Assembly (NCBI GenBank): GCA_003519645.1
Contig: DOWI01000076.1
Coordinates: forward strand, 797-5,955
Source: Oscillospiraceae bacterium
GTDB taxonomy: Bacteria > Bacillota_A > Clostridia > Oscillospirales > Acutalibacteraceae
Reading direction: 5' to 3'
DNA: 5,159 bases
Shown: one piece after another, positions 893 to 5,159 of the stretch
Layout: each line of letters starts with the position of its first letter
How positions within the stretch are numbered: position 1 is the first letter of the stretch
Position numbers and translations under genes: made by a program
The notes under the pieces: generated by a model
What the model was told of the DNA's origin: nothing
Seen by the model: only the letters and a program-made list of their open reading frames with translations
Databases searched by the model: none

Positions 893-912
893 CTCTCTAC
901 AGAACATTGTCC

Positions 913-951
913 AAAGAAGTCGATTGCTTTGCAGTTGGCTTCTTTTATTTG
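913..951 (+). terminator. rho-independent terminator-like hairpin in repeat copy 2
   Basis: The arms 913-927 and 931-945 are identical to those in copy 1: 15 bp including three G-U pairs, with a TTT loop and a short T-rich run (TATTTG). It is well placed to end the membrane protein transcript. Confidence 0.7.
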
Positions 952-963
952 ATATGGTAGAAT
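935..963 (+). promoter_or_regulatory. extended -10 promoter in repeat copy 2
   Basis: TTGGCT (935-940), a 17-bp spacer ending in TGG, and TAGAAT (958-963) repeat the arrangement of copy 1. A start near 970 would give a leader of about 35 nt before the remnant ATG at 1005, a normal spacing for a functional promoter. Confidence 0.6.
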
Positions 964-1004
964 GATAATCAATTTTTTATATGTATTATGCAGGTGGGGG
1001 TAAA

Positions 1005-1109
1005 ATGAGTTTACCCAAGAGAAAGCAGATACGCTTGAAGGATTATGATTACAGTCAAAACAATGTGTACTTTATAACCATTTTTGTTGCCGCCACCACC
1101 ATTATTTAA
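1005..1109 (+). pseudogene. N-terminal remnant of a REP-associated (Y1, IS200-like) transposase
   Basis: A 34-codon frame begins at ATG 1005 after GGTGGGGG (993-1000) and reads MSLPKRKQIRLKDYDYSQNN then VYFITIFVAATTII, ending in TAA. Known: full RAYT/transposase IS200-like proteins commonly begin with a basic R-K-x-I-R-L-K-x-Y-D-Y-S-Q-N-x-x-Y-F-I-T-I block and run to about 170-250 residues. Seen: similarity stops abruptly after FITI near position 1082. The HUH metal-binding motif and catalytic tyrosine are absent, and I could not find them in other frames down to 1251. This is a broken gene, not a working enzyme. Inference: it was cut by a deletion or insertion whose junction lies near 1080-1085. 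It sits just after the second 65-bp repeat, as expected if that repeat belonged to the transposase locus. A chance small ORF is less likely given the block match. Confidence 0.65.
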
Positions 1110-1251
1110 TATAGGGAAAACTTTGTTTACAAGGCGCTCGTTGATGATAATTATATTTTTTCACAAGCAGGCGAGTCATTCTATCTATTCAGTTTATCAA
1201 TTCTCTGCCGATAAACAAAGTAGGAAGGATCTCTTAAACAAAGATTAAAAT
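1110..1251. other. gene-free spacer between transposase remnant and glycosyltransferase, with short inverted and direct repeats
   Basis: I see no recognisable gene here. A perfect 10-bp inverted repeat joins ACTTTGTTTA (1120-1129) to TAAACAAAGT (1212-1221). GTTTATC (1192-1198) pairs with GATAAAC (1210-1216) over 11 nt. TAAACAAAG also recurs directly at 1235-1243. AGGAAGG at 1222-1228 looks like a ribosome binding site but is 23 nt from the next ATG. A weak promoter-like pair, TTGTTT (1123-1128) and GATAAT (1146-1151) with 17-bp spacing, could serve the glycosyltransferase gene. Confidence 0.4.
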
Positions 1252-3846
1252 ATGAAACGGAAAGCTGGGAAAAGAGTGGGTGTAGCTGAGCTTGTAAGTG
1301 TGGATATGCATAAGGTCAGTGTTATCGTTCCGGTTTATAAAGCGGAGAGGTTTCTTAACCGGTGTGTGGACAGCATATTAAACCAGAGATATAATAATCT
1401 TCAGATCATTTTGGTTGATGACGGATCGCCCGACAAAAGCGGGGAAATATGCGATGAATATGCCGCTTCCGATTCGAGAGTGGTGGTTATCCATCAGCCG
1501 AATCAGGGCGTATCGGCAGCGAGAAACGCAGGGTTATCGGCTGCTGAAGGCGACTTAATTTCGTTTGTGGACAGTGATGACTGGATCGAACCCGAAATGA
1601 TAGCTGAAATGGTAAACAAACTGATTGCGTATGATCTGGAAATTGTGCAATGCGGCCTCAGGTGGGTGGGCGGCAAGATTGGTAATCCAACCAGTTCCGG
1701 CAGTTTTCGGATTATGACGCAGTTTGAAGCGATAGAGAGTATGATCGGCGGCATTTGTTCCGTGGCAAATAAGCTATATAAACGTGATGTTATCATAAAC
1801 GAGCGGTTTACCGTAGGAAAGAGATTTGCCGAAGACCTGCTACTCAATACAAAAATAATGCTTAAGGTCAATTGTGTTGGTCTGTTGGATAAACCCTACT
1901 ATAATTACTATCAAAATGACGAAAGCGTTTCACACGAAAATTTTAGTTATGACAATATAACAATAGTCGAGATAAAACTGGAAATAACCGAAATGCTAAA
2001 AAAGGCAGATAAAAGTCTGTCAGCCCTGGCATATGGTCTTTTTATGATGTCTTATTTTGAGAATTTAATCAAGGCATACCAAATGCCTGAATCAGCAGAA
2101 AGAAAAAAATGCATCAGCAGGATGACAGAGATCGCAGTGAATACAGGCATACCGATTGCAGATTTAGCTGACCCGGATGCTCTGCTGACCACCATGACTG
2201 AAATGATTTTGAGCTACTATCTTATAACTGAAAAGCCAAAACGTGTCTTGGTAATCAGCCCGTATGATTTGATGTTCGGTTGTCTCATCCGGAATTTGCT
2301 TGGGCATGCAAACAACACGCCTGTCTTGGTGGACAAGGTGGAGCTAGACGATGAAAGCATCTTGGTAGAGGACGTATATGATAACATACTTGAGGTAGAC
2401 TGTCTGCTGCAGCCCGGCAGGCTAAAACGTTATGATTGTATCGTGATTACGGGTGTTTTTGAAACGCTGGGCAGAGAGAGTTCTCTGCAGCTTCTTAAAA
2501 ATATACTTCCCTACACCCATCAATCTGTTTTCTGTGTAACCACACTGCTGACCGAGAGGGAAAGCAGCGGCGGCTCTGTTGAAAGGGTACGGGAATATCA
2601 CCCTGTCGCATTCAGTGAATTTGATTTCTCATACCGATCTTTTCCTGTCGGGAAAGGCGGTCTGCAATGTTATATCTTTTATCCAAAATCAAAAGACACT
2701 AAGGCAACCGAAAAAATTACGCAAAAACCGCAGTTGAATTACAGCCATAAATTGAAGATTGCATATATTCTTCCGCACAAGCATCTAACCGGTGGATTGA
2801 AATGCCTCTTAGAGCAAATGAGGCAGCTTCAAAAACGCGGACATTCTGTTTATGCCATTTACAGAAACCAGCCGGCAGAAAAGGGTAATTCGGTTGCTCT
2901 TCCCGAGTGGTGCAATTTAGATCCTGCATACGATATCAGCGGGCAGGTGGTACTCGAGCCGGAGGATAAATTTGCGGAGAAGCTTCAAAGTTTTGATATC
3001 ATCATGCTTGGCTTTGCAAGCGGTCTTACCGACTTTGCCCAGCCGATTCATACCCCGGTGTTTTATTGGGAACAGGGATATGAGGGCCTGTATGGTGATT
3101 ACGGCCAATTGTTGGGGAGCAAGAACAAACATATACAATATAATCGGCTTCTCTATTCCATCCCTGTGAATTATCTAGCTGTTTCTGAGCTGGTTTCAGA
3201 AATTATGAATGTGAAATACGGTGTTGACGCCGGCGTATTGTATAATGGGATTGATCTCGAATTTTATAGACCCGATTCGAAAAAAACGTTTAGCGGGACA
3301 ATTCTTCTGGTAGGGAATCCGGCCTTGCCGTTCAAAGGGTTTGCATTTGCTTTAAAGTTACTGCATAGGGTCTGGTCCATGGGCTATAGGTTTAAAGTTA
3401 ACTGGGCATGTCAGGTAAAACCCGAGCTGCCAACCCTGCCGTTTGAAATTAATTATTATGTAATGCAGCCACAGGAGGTTCTTGCAAAGCTATATCGTGA
3501 AGCCGACATTTTTTTATCCGCCTCATTATATGAATCGTTTCCGATGCCTCCTCTTGAGGCAATGGCATCGGGTACGCCTGTTATTGCTGCAGACTGCGGC
3601 GGCATCAATACCTACGCCTGCCCGGGCGAGAATATGCTTCTGTTTGAACAGGGGGATATGGACATGGCGGCTACCGAACTTATTTGTTTGCTGGAAAATG
3701 AGGAAGTAAGAAAACTACTTGCCGAAAACGGAAGAAAGACTGCCGAACTATTTTGTTTTGAACGCATTGCCGCCGATTTAGAGGATTATTTCTATTCAGC
3801 ATTAGATGAAAAAGCTAACAGCAGGGCCTTCCAAAAAAAGGGTTGA
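1252..3846 (+). CDS. bifunctional glycosyltransferase: GT2 (GT-A) plus Rossmann-like segment plus GT4 (GT-B)
   Basis: This 864-residue cytoplasmic or membrane-associated protein is predicted to transfer two sugars during surface glycan assembly. Residues 21-230 form a GT2 domain: KVSVIVPVYKAE (21-32), VDDGSPDKSG (55-64), NQGVSAARNAGL (84-95) and the metal-binding VDSDDW (106-111). Residues about 240-325 look helical. Residues 329-478 look Rossmann/methyltransferase-like (RVLVISP, YDCIVITGVFETL, then a late DFSYRSF), but no glycine-rich SAM loop is visible. Residues 501-853 form a GT4 domain: GGLKCLLEQM near 514, LYNGIDLEFYRP (663-674), LVGNPALPFKG (686-696), and the nucleotide-sugar EX7E pair E761/E769 in ESFPMPPLEAMASGTPVIA. 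Start choice is uncertain: ATG 1252 has no good ribosome binding site. ATG 1306 (residue 19) gives MHKVSVIVPVYK, a typical GT2 start, but also has a weak site. Donors, acceptors and linkages cannot be told. Both active sites look intact. Confidence 0.9.
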   Translation: MKRKAGKRVGVAELVSVDMHKVSVIVPVYKAERFLNRCVDSILNQRYNNLQIILVDDGSPDKSGEICDEYAASDSRVVVIHQPNQGVSAARNAGLSAAEGDLISFVDSDDWIEPEMIAEMVNKLIAYDLEIVQCGLRWVGGKIGNPTSSGSFRIMTQFEAIESMIGGICSVANKLYKRDVIINERFTVGKRFAEDLLLNTKIMLKVNCVGLLDKPYYNYYQNDESVSHENFSYDNITIVEIKLEITEMLKKADKSLSALAYGLFMMSYFENLIKAYQMPESAERKKCISRMTEIAVNTGIPIADLADPDALLTTMTEMILSYYLITEKPKRVLVISPYDLMFGCLIRNLLGHANNTPVLVDKVELDDESILVEDVYDNILEVDCLLQPGRLKRYDCIVITGVFETLGRESSLQLLKNILPYTHQSVFCVTTLLTERESSGGSVERVREYHPVAFSEFDFSYRSFPVGKGGLQCYIFYPKSKDTKATEKITQKPQLNYSHKLKIAYILPHKHLTGGLKCLLEQMRQLQKRGHSVYAIYRNQPAEKGNSVALPEWCNLDPAYDISGQVVLEPEDKFAEKLQSFDIIMLGFASGLTDFAQPIHTPVFYWEQGYEGLYGDYGQLLGSKNKHIQYNRLLYSIPVNYLAVSELVSEIMNVKYGVDAGVLYNGIDLEFYRPDSKKTFSGTILLVGNPALPFKGFAFALKLLHRVWSMGYRFKVNWACQVKPELPTLPFEINYYVMQPQEVLAKLYREADIFLSASLYESFPMPPLEAMASGTPVIAADCGGINTYACPGENMLLFEQGDMDMAATELICLLENEEVRKLLAENGRKTAELFCFERIAADLEDYFYSALDEKANSRAFQKKG

Positions 3847-3871
3847 CAAATTGGTTTTGTCTATTTATAAT
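3843..3871 (+). promoter_or_regulatory. consensus sigma-A promoter of the riboswitch leader
   Basis: TTGACA (3843-3848), a 17-bp spacer and TATAAT (3866-3871) match the consensus at all 12 hexamer positions. The -35 overlaps the TGA stop (3844-3846) of the glycosyltransferase gene. Transcription should begin near 3878, giving a leader of about 240 nt before the ATG at 4120. Such a strong promoter suggests control is exerted mainly after initiation, by the riboswitch. Confidence 0.9.
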
Positions 3872-3904
3872 ATGAACCATATCAAATATATAACAACTGA
3901 ATAA

Positions 3905-3979
3905 CCTTGGCAAAGCTGGTGAAAGCCAGCGACGCAAAGCAATGAGTCTAAGACGGATGATTCCGTTATGATTGTCAGG
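3905..3979 (+). promoter_or_regulatory. cyclic-di-GMP-I (GEMM-I) riboswitch aptamer 1
   Basis: The conserved GEMM-I core is present: GGCAAA (3909-3914); a hairpin GCTGGT-GAAA-GCCAGC (3915-3930) with the GNRA tetraloop; GACGCAAAGC (3931-3940); a CTAA receptor segment (3948-3951); a second stem capped by ACGGA/TCCGT (3953-3957, 3961-3965) and closed at its base by CAAT/ATTG (3940-3943, 3971-3974); and P1 from CCT/AGG (3905-3907, 3977-3979). By alignment to the known Vibrio Vc2 aptamer, the ligand-contacting G20, A47 and C92 correspond to G3910, A3937 and C3976. All appear intact, so this copy should bind c-di-GMP. Confidence 0.93.
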
Positions 3980-3981
3980 CT

Positions 3982-4057
3982 GCATTGGGCAAAACTGGCG
4001 AAAGCCAGCGGCGCAAAGCGTTGAGTCTAAGGTGGAAAACCGCTACGATTGTCAAGC
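3982..4057 (+). promoter_or_regulatory. cyclic-di-GMP-I (GEMM-I) riboswitch aptamer 2
   Basis: This is the second aptamer of the tandem. Over the 44 nt of the 5' core (3988-4031 against 3909-3952) it matches aptamer 1 at 39 positions. It keeps GGCAAA, CTGGC-GAAA-GCCAG, GCAAAGC and CTAA, and the equivalents of G20, A47 and C92 (G3989, A4016, C4053). Differences: GACGC has become GGCGC (G4011), the base of the second stem has a U-U mismatch with a G-U pair, and the apical stem is GGTGG-AAAA-CCGCT. P1 is probably GC(A)TT with AAGC (4054-4057), whose last two bases are also the first two of the terminator. Confidence 0.9.
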
Positions 4058-4086
4058 TGCATTATGATTTCATAATGCAGCTTTTT
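4056..4086 (+). terminator. rho-independent terminator, expression platform of the tandem riboswitch
   Basis: GCTGCATTATG (4056-4066) pairs perfectly over 11 bp with CATAATGCAGC (4071-4081) across an ATTT loop, followed by TTTTT (4082-4086). It shares GC 4056-4057 with the probable 3' P1 strand of aptamer 2, so folding of the two is coupled. It lies 33 nt before the surface protein start codon, so control is by early termination and not by hiding the ribosome site. Confidence 0.93.
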
Positions 4087-4105
4087 GCATCTATTTTATA
4101 ATAAT

Positions 4106-4111
4106 GGGAGG
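4106..4111 (+). promoter_or_regulatory. ribosome binding site of the surface protein gene
   Basis: GGGAGG lies 8 nt before ATG 4120, an ideal spacing. It is only 3 nt before an out-of-frame ATG at 4115, which opens a two-codon frame (ATG GTA TGA) overlapping the real start. Confidence 0.85.
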
Positions 4112-4119
4112 CAAATGGT

Positions 4120-5159
4120 ATGAGAATCAGCAAAAAACTTCTTTCTCTTGTCCTAGCAGTCGGCATAGGCTTTACAACGGCGGGCATTCTATCGGCGGCC
4201 GCGGATCAGATCGCTGATGCGGCAGTTTATGCACAAGGAGATTTAATATTAGAAGGCTCTGGGATCATTAAAGGAGACGGAATTATAACCAAAGGCAAGC
4301 TGTCGGGCGGGAGCAACCCTTGGACAACCGGTCATATTTATGCAGCCGATAAAGTGAAGGTCGGAGAGCTTTCTGATGTTAATAAGCCGCTTGTTAAGAA
4401 GTATAACGGTGAAATAATCAATTATATTTTTAAAGATTATAAAAACTTCCCTGAAACCACCTATTTCATGAATAAAAGCACCGAGTATAAGGACGGTACA
4501 AAGGACTTGGTAATCGGATGGGATGAGTCTTTAGGGGAGAAGCCCAGTGGATTTACCCTGAAAGCCGATTCGTTCATCCGCCATTTGACGGTTGAATACG
4601 AGGTTACGCTGAATATCGAAGTGCCCCAAGGTCAGCTACGTGTTATACGAGCCGAACATCTTACAATGAACGGAACCATTGCAATCAAGGGCGGCGGAAG
4701 AGTCATTTTATATGTGGATCGTATGTTCAGCGGTATGAACGGGAAATTTAATGCAACCGGTTCCTCCTTCGGCAGTACAGATCAATTCACACTGATTATT
4801 GACAAGGGCGATAACAATATAAGCTTCAATGGTGCCCGGATTGGCGGTCATGTAATCTACACCGACAACAGGCTGCCGCTCGCCAATATATATATGCAGG
4901 GCAACCTTTATACCAAAGGTTATATTGAAATAAGCGGAACCGCTTATATAAAAGGTTTGGTGTATGTGCCCAACTCCAGAACACAGGTTCAAAACAGCTC
5001 CTATATTATGGGCAGGATTATTACCGATTATCTTACCATCAGCGGAAGCAGCTATGTGCAAAAAGGCAGTGTTTCCGGACTTCCCTCGGATGTGGCGGAG
5101 TTTATAGGAGATAAAAATGACGGGCAGGCGTTTGATGAAACCCAGCCCTCACAGACCAC
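4120..5159 (+). CDS. secreted beta-rich surface protein under c-di-GMP riboswitch control (3' end outside window)
   Basis: The frame is open for 346 codons with no stop before the window edge, so it is incomplete. Residues 1-28 form a Sec signal peptide: basic MRISKK, a hydrophobic core LLSLVLAVGIGFTTAGIL, and SAAA before DQ, with cleavage probably near residues 26-28. The mature protein is rich in short strand-like segments with alternating hydrophobic residues and G/N turns: DLILEGSGIIKGDGIITKG near 41-59, AIKGGGRVILYVDRM (188-202), DNNISFNGARIGGHVIY (231-247), then YIEISGTAYIKGLVYVPNS (268-286) and YLTISGSSYVQKG (304-316). This resembles the beta-helix-like C-terminal region (DUF7305 type) of PilX-like and other exported Firmicute proteins, but that is by eye. 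No sortase motif, anchor or repeat is visible before the edge. Inference: an exported adhesion, pilus or matrix-associated protein whose amount follows c-di-GMP. The signal peptide and riboswitch link are firm; the exact function is unknown. Confidence 0.85.
   Translation, partial: MRISKKLLSLVLAVGIGFTTAGILSAAADQIADAAVYAQGDLILEGSGIIKGDGIITKGKLSGGSNPWTTGHIYAADKVKVGELSDVNKPLVKKYNGEIINYIFKDYKNFPETTYFMNKSTEYKDGTKDLVIGWDESLGEKPSGFTLKADSFIRHLTVEYEVTLNIEVPQGQLRVIRAEHLTMNGTIAIKGGGRVILYVDRMFSGMNGKFNATGSSFGSTDQFTLIIDKGDNNISFNGARIGGHVIYTDNRLPLANIYMQGNLYTKGYIEISGTAYIKGLVYVPNSRTQVQNSSYIMGRIITDYLTISGSSYVQKGSVSGLPSDVAEFIGDKNDGQAFDETQPSQT

Follow-up and report, generated by a model that had tools for sequence, protein, structure and literature searches.

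Two abutting c-di-GMP-I aptamers share one terminator ahead of a surface-protein and putative polysaccharide gene run in an Oscillospiraceae bacterium

We analyzed a stretch of 5,159 nucleotides from an Oscillospiraceae bacterium (contig DOWI01000076.1, positions 797 to 5,955 of the forward strand), referred to below as the window. Between a glycosyltransferase gene and the gene of a secreted surface protein (gene A) it carries a leader with two aptamers of the class I cyclic di-GMP riboswitch (c-di-GMP-I or GEMM-I; Rfam family RF01051), which abut and are followed by one intrinsic terminator. We consider it likely that this leader is a c-di-GMP-I riboswitch acting as a transcriptional ON switch for a gene run that starts with the surface protein and continues into polysaccharide-type genes. 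The features of the locus are as follows (window coordinates).

1252..3846, plus strand: upstream two-domain glycosyltransferase (GT2 and GT4), the neighbouring gene, which ends at the promoter
3843..3871, plus strand: sigma-A-type promoter, TTGACA-N17-TATAAT, 12 of 12 consensus matches
3899..3987, plus strand: c-di-GMP-I aptamer 1 (RF01051), 68.0 bits, E 2.9e-12; G3909, A3936, C3983
3978..4064, plus strand: c-di-GMP-I aptamer 2 (RF01051), 66.3 bits, E 2.2e-13; G3988, A4015, C4060
4054..4086, plus strand: terminator hairpin, the only expression platform seen; stem 4054-4066/4071-4083, T run 4082-4086
4106..4111, plus strand: ribosome-binding site GGGAGG, read from the sequence
4120..5157, plus strand: gene A, secreted ice-binding-like beta-solenoid protein (predicted), DUF7305-like; ATG at 4120, 346 of 535 amino acids (aa) in the window

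Scanning genome contigs with the window protein returned a single relative, DHOG01000014.1 of Ruminococcaceae bacterium UBA5396 (genome G001, locus L001), an organism placed in Oscillospiraceae in the NCBI taxonomy. Window positions 898-5159 are 99.8% identical to this locus (BLAST). The UBA5396 contig carries the twin aptamers as well, so the tandem is seen in two assemblies; in total G001 contains six c-di-GMP-I aptamers, two of which are this pair.

The covariance search with the Rfam model confirms the two GEMM-I aptamers of the original prediction, since both scores lie well above the gathering cut-off of 35 bits (the E-value of aptamer 2 applies to the 161-base stretch searched, 3970-4130). 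The wide search showed aptamer 1 only: cmscan hides one of two overlapping matches, and aptamer 2 was missing because the footprints of both overlap. Each aptamer spans model positions 1-87, which is the full length, and non-standard pairs are limited to one of the 22 model pairs in aptamer 1 and two of 22 in aptamer 2. Model positions 11, 38 and 83, which we take to be the equivalents of G20, A47 and C92 in Vc2 numbering, are G, A and C in both copies. The G rather than A at position 11 would fit c-di-GMP rather than cyclic AMP-GMP (c-AMP-GMP) as the ligand. Identity between the copies is 77%, against 70% or less with each of 23 other aptamers compared; because they are mutually closest, a local duplication would fit the pair.

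An A at model position 11 occurs elsewhere in G001, namely in three of its six aptamers: C182 (L012:9620-10254), C97 (L011:683-774) and C174 (L013:9428-9509). The first of these precedes a type IV prepilin-like gene (MLKLMKRLKGKKGFTLIELI...). Two operon leaders of relatives discussed below (G199 and G188) also have A at this position. A G-to-A change in the pocket has been linked with c-AMP-GMP sensing (PMC9481103).

The Rfam footprints of the two aptamers overlap by 10 nt (a gap of -10 nt), the core of aptamer 2 begins where that of aptamer 1 ends, and no U run lies between the cores. Abutting cores leave no space for an intervening terminator; the leader therefore consists of two aptamers sharing one expression platform rather than two riboswitches in series. 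This is the glycine-type architecture, i.e. homologous aptamers less than 20 nt apart with one platform after the second (PMC12452182). A pseudo-cooperative tandem, which has a platform after each aptamer, was considered and rejected given the overlap and the missing U run. The two aptamers in series described earlier are thus both complete, but the independent riboswitches this implied are not present, since one platform serves both.

The promoter flanking this arrangement was correctly predicted as full-consensus. Its -35 box shares nucleotides with the stop codon of the preceding glycosyltransferase gene (open reading frame (ORF) end 3846), and of six promoter-like sites in 3700-4200 (against a mean of 0.8 in shuffles) it is the sole one with 12 of 12 matches. 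On the terminator the original prediction holds in part. A hairpin with a T run is present, consisting of a 13-bp stem with an ATTT loop and TTTTT at 4082-4086 (two T inside the stem), followed by GCAT. The description as a perfect U-tract terminator was overstated: the run has just five T, and a pattern scanner reported no terminator in 3700-4200 (0.5 expected in shuffles). The 5' arm (AAGCUGCAUUAUG) includes the 3' strand of the P3 helix of aptamer 2 together with the C92 equivalent.

This overlap bears directly on the switch direction. Folded freely, the leader adopts the terminator at -73.2 kcal/mol, and holding aptamer 2 yields -61.3 kcal/mol, a cost of 11.9 kcal/mol (energies of secondary structure only, with neither ligand nor tertiary terms). 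With aptamer 2 held, at most an 8-bp hairpin is left, set back from the U run. We also folded 19 leaders from 15 relatives, out of 24 aptamers in relatives; those left out were on other contigs or distant (G171:C25, G192:C1, G122:C14:28013, G080:C4, G080:C20). All 19 have a hairpin followed by a T run. The 5' arm of this hairpin starts 6-18 nt inside the aptamer in 18 leaders and 2 nt inside in G080a. The arms change together among relatives (GGCTGC/GCAGCC, AGCTGC/GCAGCT, GCTCC/GGAGT), as individual pairs rather than as a covariation statistic. Because the terminator arm lies inside the aptamer in the window and in 18 of the 19 relatives' leaders, an ON switch is predicted. The Bc3-5 c-di-GMP-I tandem of Bacillus thuringiensis is reported to have the same overlap of terminator and aptamer and to be an ON switch (PMC4759541).

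When c-di-GMP is absent, aptamer 2 would give up its 3' end (AAGCUGC...) as the 5' arm of the 13-bp terminator, and transcription would stop about 200 nt past its start. With c-di-GMP bound, aptamer 2 would retain its 3' strand, only a hairpin of 8 bp or less would form off the U run, and the polymerase would continue. Read-through would then produce the surface protein, followed by coiled, HD-GYP-like, HEAT-repeat, GT2 synthase and three glycosidase-like proteins. The output would be machinery for an exopolysaccharide, made when c-di-GMP is high (the sessile state). As aptamer 1 has no terminator of its own, a helper role is suggested for it: this local duplicate would most likely make the response steeper or more sensitive by aiding aptamer 2.

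A possible coupling of the aptamers is seen in the computed fold. Here the closing helix of aptamer 1 (CUGA 3897-3900 with UUGG 3985-3988) pairs G3988, which is also the G20 equivalent of aptamer 2; since this nucleotide is common to both, the two sites would be physically coupled. The tandem glycine riboswitch likewise joins two aptamers to one platform (PMC9481103), though with another aptamer family and ligand, and cooperativity is putative in the present case. We tentatively suggest that the leader might be a c-di-GMP-I counterpart of the cooperative glycine riboswitch, in which abutting aptamers act through one terminator by cooperation or sequential hand-over.

The shared-platform form is rare in the sampled genomes but not unique. 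In 300 family genomes we found 12 other same-strand c-di-GMP-I pairs within 300 nt, with gaps of 46-196 nt, and at least 11 such pairs were among the matches listed for 391 class genomes (gaps 39-178 nt). A pattern for abutting cores, built from exact core words, matched in 32 of the 391 class genomes. Twenty of these matches were scanned with Rfam: 17 lacked c-di-GMP-I aptamers and three had them, namely G001 itself (L086) and two loci from other Clostridia. The latter, L077 1466-1622 and L076 162-318 (minus strand), hold aptamer pairs with a 7-nt gap and one terminator each, as read by eye; the L077 pair is followed by a DUF7507/DUF11-repeat protein. In both loci the specificity position is A in the first aptamer and G in the second, so these pairs could be two-signal switches responding to c-AMP-GMP and c-di-GMP.

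Tandem c-di-GMP-I riboswitches as such are already known. A 2022 survey counts 347 doublets and 12 triplets, and its table, as read, assigns c-di-GMP-I to the group with multiple expression platforms; glycine and guanidine-II stand in the group of dual aptamers with one platform (PMC9481103). A 2025 survey, which puts the limit for adjacent aptamers at 20 nt, reports an enrichment of tandem riboswitches for c-di-GMP and of adjacent aptamers for glycine (PMC12452182). New here are the shared-platform twin and the association with a conserved operon of polysaccharide type that is headed by c-di-GMP-I; we found no description of either in the portions of the literature searched.

The reading frame of gene A runs off the window, and its full length of 535 aa is taken from the 99%-identical locus L001. 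The protein has one N-terminal hydrophobic segment (residues 6-28). Its best sequence-family match is DUF7305 (PF23981), with 32.2 bits for the 346 aa of the window and 22.4 bits for all 535 aa, against a cut-off of 27; Foldseek alone gave no match below E 0.001. The predicted fold is an ice-binding-like beta-solenoid, adhesin-like and not that of a pilin. It resembles the DUF3494 ice-binding-like beta-solenoids and the putative adhesive domains of PF20597, although identity to the ice-binding matches is just 10-17%. The hydrophobic segment and this fold agree with the signal-peptide-bearing, beta-rich protein proposed at the outset. Of the further suggestion of an adhesin or pilus-like component, the adhesin half gains from the beta-solenoid fold, but the pilus half falls away. 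Type IV pilins are marked by a prepilin motif at the N terminus, whereas the N terminus of gene A, read by eye, is of signal-peptide type; a type IV pilin was therefore rejected.

Relatives of gene A were matched in 14 of 398 family genomes, eight of them with E <1e-15. Seven of these eight have an aptamer just upstream (G001, G014, G080, G192, G331, G405, G422). The eighth, G006, shares its gene order with G001, but the leader is missing because the contig starts about 100 nt before gene A. In four relatives of the surface protein, counted in addition to the 13 operon genomes described below, the aptamer ends 34-68 nt before the reading frame. Outside G001 and G006 the matches are partial: in G331 the N-terminal domain is covered, with a short C-terminal piece matched on a different contig, and elsewhere the C-terminal domain. 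All of the seven except G001 have a single aptamer per gene. This count comes from searches that did list both G001 copies, and since the G405 contig ends at the aptamer a further upstream copy may lie beyond it.

Two side observations concern these leaders. In G080 (L048:15483-15915) two c-di-GMP-I aptamers lie back to back, each before its own gene akin to gene A, and the minus-strand aptamer of this divergent pair also heads the synthase operon. Furthermore, six leaders, L054 (G014a), L056 (G158b), L058 (G133a), L092, L093 and L094, carry a purine-rich GGAG in the 3' arm of the aptamer-overlapping hairpin. They precede genes akin to the C-terminal domain of the surface protein, with the GGAG near the start codon where visible, and their hairpins could hide a ribosome-binding site as well as terminate.

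On the UBA5396 contig gene A is the first of nine same-strand genes, A to I. Wherever both ends can be read, which leaves out the A-B junction, neighbouring genes are separated by about 70 nt or less. The genes after A are listed below.

Gene B, L001, after A, same strand: first part masked in the record
Gene C, same strand: coiled protein of 356 aa that resembles DivIVA by eye; family search gave no convincing match
Gene D, L001:11656-13911, same strand: 751-aa membrane protein with an HD-GYP-like domain
Gene E, same strand: 1011 aa, paralogue of H
Gene F, same strand: 367-aa HEAT-repeat protein with one N-terminal membrane segment
Gene G, same strand: 467-aa GT2
Genes H and I, same strand: 757 and 747 aa, glycosidase-like; I is a paralogue of H

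Gene G has the motifs LDAD, GED and QRRRW. All three motifs of processive GT2 enzymes (DxD, (T/G)ED, QxxRW) are found in G001 and eight close relatives; three more distant relatives all have ED and QxxRW, and one of them has the simple DxD pattern. Its matches in the Protein Data Bank are chondroitin synthase (1.1e-7) and cellulose synthase BcsA (1.7e-7) chains. In gene D the HD and HHE residues are retained and the P of GYP is absent in all nine sequences (G001 and eight relatives); the protein could act as a receptor for c-di-GMP or as a phosphodiesterase in a feedback loop. The three glycosidase-like proteins of the run are membrane-anchored. The model of gene H (pLDDT 82.5, pTM 0.82) matches GH157 best (E 7e-11), as well as a beta-mannanase and GH2 enzymes. 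Four H relatives (P0034, P0101, P0127, P0141) are publicly named 'family 2 glycosyl transferase' though the H model resembles glycosidases; the label appears to have been transferred from the adjacent gene. Past gene I lies a convergent gene, taken by eye for feoB.

The association of aptamer and operon extends to relatives. A search of 295 genomes of the order gave matches to gene H in 22. For the RF01051 scan we used 21 genomes, namely 19 of the 21 H genomes besides G001 (the weak or partial G127 and G210 were dropped) together with G006 and G014; 15 of the 21 contain the family. Among the 19 operon-type genomes, 13 have the operon preceded by an aptamer on its own contig and strand (G080, G087, G117, G122, G144, G158, G171, G188, G192, G199, G252, G289, G299), and in G133 an aptamer heads the B-D end on another contig. 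For comparison, any c-di-GMP-I aptamer is found in 50 of 300 family genomes, under stricter filters. For one protein of the operon, 3,245 of 7,996 scored candidates are relatives.

Several observations weigh against our interpretation. Among relatives of the operon and the surface protein, the tandem was seen only in G001 and the window. The remaining five of the 19 operon-type genomes (G069, G088, G107, G285, G307) gave no c-di-GMP-I match in the genome or, by Rfam, in the fetched locus; the operon thus does not depend on the switch. Masking covers part of the A-B junction (L001 9734-9966), which could hold an internal promoter or terminator, and the fold matches of gene H have a TM-score on the query of 0.33 or less. 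Equilibrium folding strongly favours the terminator; control must therefore depend on kinetics or on the ligand. Among the other four aptamers of G001, C182 and C174 have an overlapping hairpin, but the nearest terminator of C97 lies 10 nt past the aptamer and none was found for C58; the overlap is thus no general feature of G001. In the G014a, G158b and G133a leaders the 3' arm of the hairpin also carries the ribosome-binding site, and the platform may be translational there. Finally, the class I c-di-GMP riboswitches of Clostridioides difficile are OFF switches (PMC11477304).

Alternative explanations differ in how well they stand up to these data. It is conceivable that aptamer 1 is a redundant remnant of the tandem duplication and that aptamer 2 regulates alone; we give this about the same weight as the cooperative model. 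The copies are each other's nearest, operon relatives carry one aptamer, and aptamer 1 lacks a platform. Nonetheless, despite 23% divergence the residues equivalent to G20, A47 and C92 are intact in it, as are the GAAA loop and all but one of the 22 model pairs, and it scores slightly above aptamer 2. Rather unlikely is a switch limited to the surface protein, with the later genes under their own promoters. G158, G133 and G014 do have separate aptamers for the relative of the gene A C-terminal domain and for the synthase operon, but G001 and G006 have the genes side by side on a single strand, in the same order, and no further c-di-GMP-I aptamer was found within the G001 run. We regard as improbable an OFF switch of the kind reported for C. 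difficile, in which the ligand-bound aptamer permits the terminator and an antiterminator forms without ligand: the terminator arm is itself part of the aptamer 3' strand, in the window and (by at least 6 nt) in 18 of 19 relatives' leaders, and free folding yields the terminator and no antiterminator. Two independent riboswitches in series, acting as two checkpoints in a pseudo-cooperative way, are a common arrangement for c-di-GMP-I according to the 2022 survey, but the overlapping footprints and the absence of a U run between the cores make them highly improbable here.

The ON switch with a shared platform can be set beside known systems. Compared with typical RF01051 members the aptamers are equally full-length, with the same presumed ligand-contact positions, but the window copies abut and share nucleotides. 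The Bc3-5 triple tandem has the same ligand class, the P3 3' strand and C92 equivalent in the terminator, a surface-protein operon and the ON direction that is predicted for the window; it differs in having a platform for each aptamer where here one serves two (PMC4759541). With the clostridial ccsZABHI operon (PMC7710045) and Gram-positive pel clusters with their cotH/PPP/DUF4956 accessory genes (PMC7112168) the operon has in common a GT2-type synthase with glycosidase partners. It differs from both in its HEAT-repeat partner, three glycosidase-like proteins, HD-GYP-like protein and riboswitch. A shorter operon relative, G289, has VTC, DUF4956 and CotH genes before the glycosidase, resembling the VTC/DUF4956/CotH-type set reported beside pel in streptococci and clostridia (PMC7112168). 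No PelF, PelG or PilZ family came up in family searches of the operon proteins.

Upstream of the locus, a 66-nt direct repeat (94% identical; 209-274 and 898-963) lies either side of a 177-aa membrane-protein ORF (330-863). The UBA5396 contig aligns as though it contained a single repeat copy and no such ORF, a pattern that recombination between the repeats or a collapse in assembly would leave. A short ORF at 981-1109 (SLPKRKQIRLKDYDYSQNNVYFITI...) resembles the start of a putative remnant of a REP-associated tyrosine transposase.

Tandems of c-di-GMP-I aptamers are treated in the literature consulted as independent serial switches, and the shared-platform pair offers a natural system in which cooperativity can be probed. 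Moreover, the comparison ties c-di-GMP-I riboswitches to a GT2/HEAT/glycosidase operon of Clostridia, giving a testable c-di-GMP route to surface polysaccharide in relatives of Ruminococcus.

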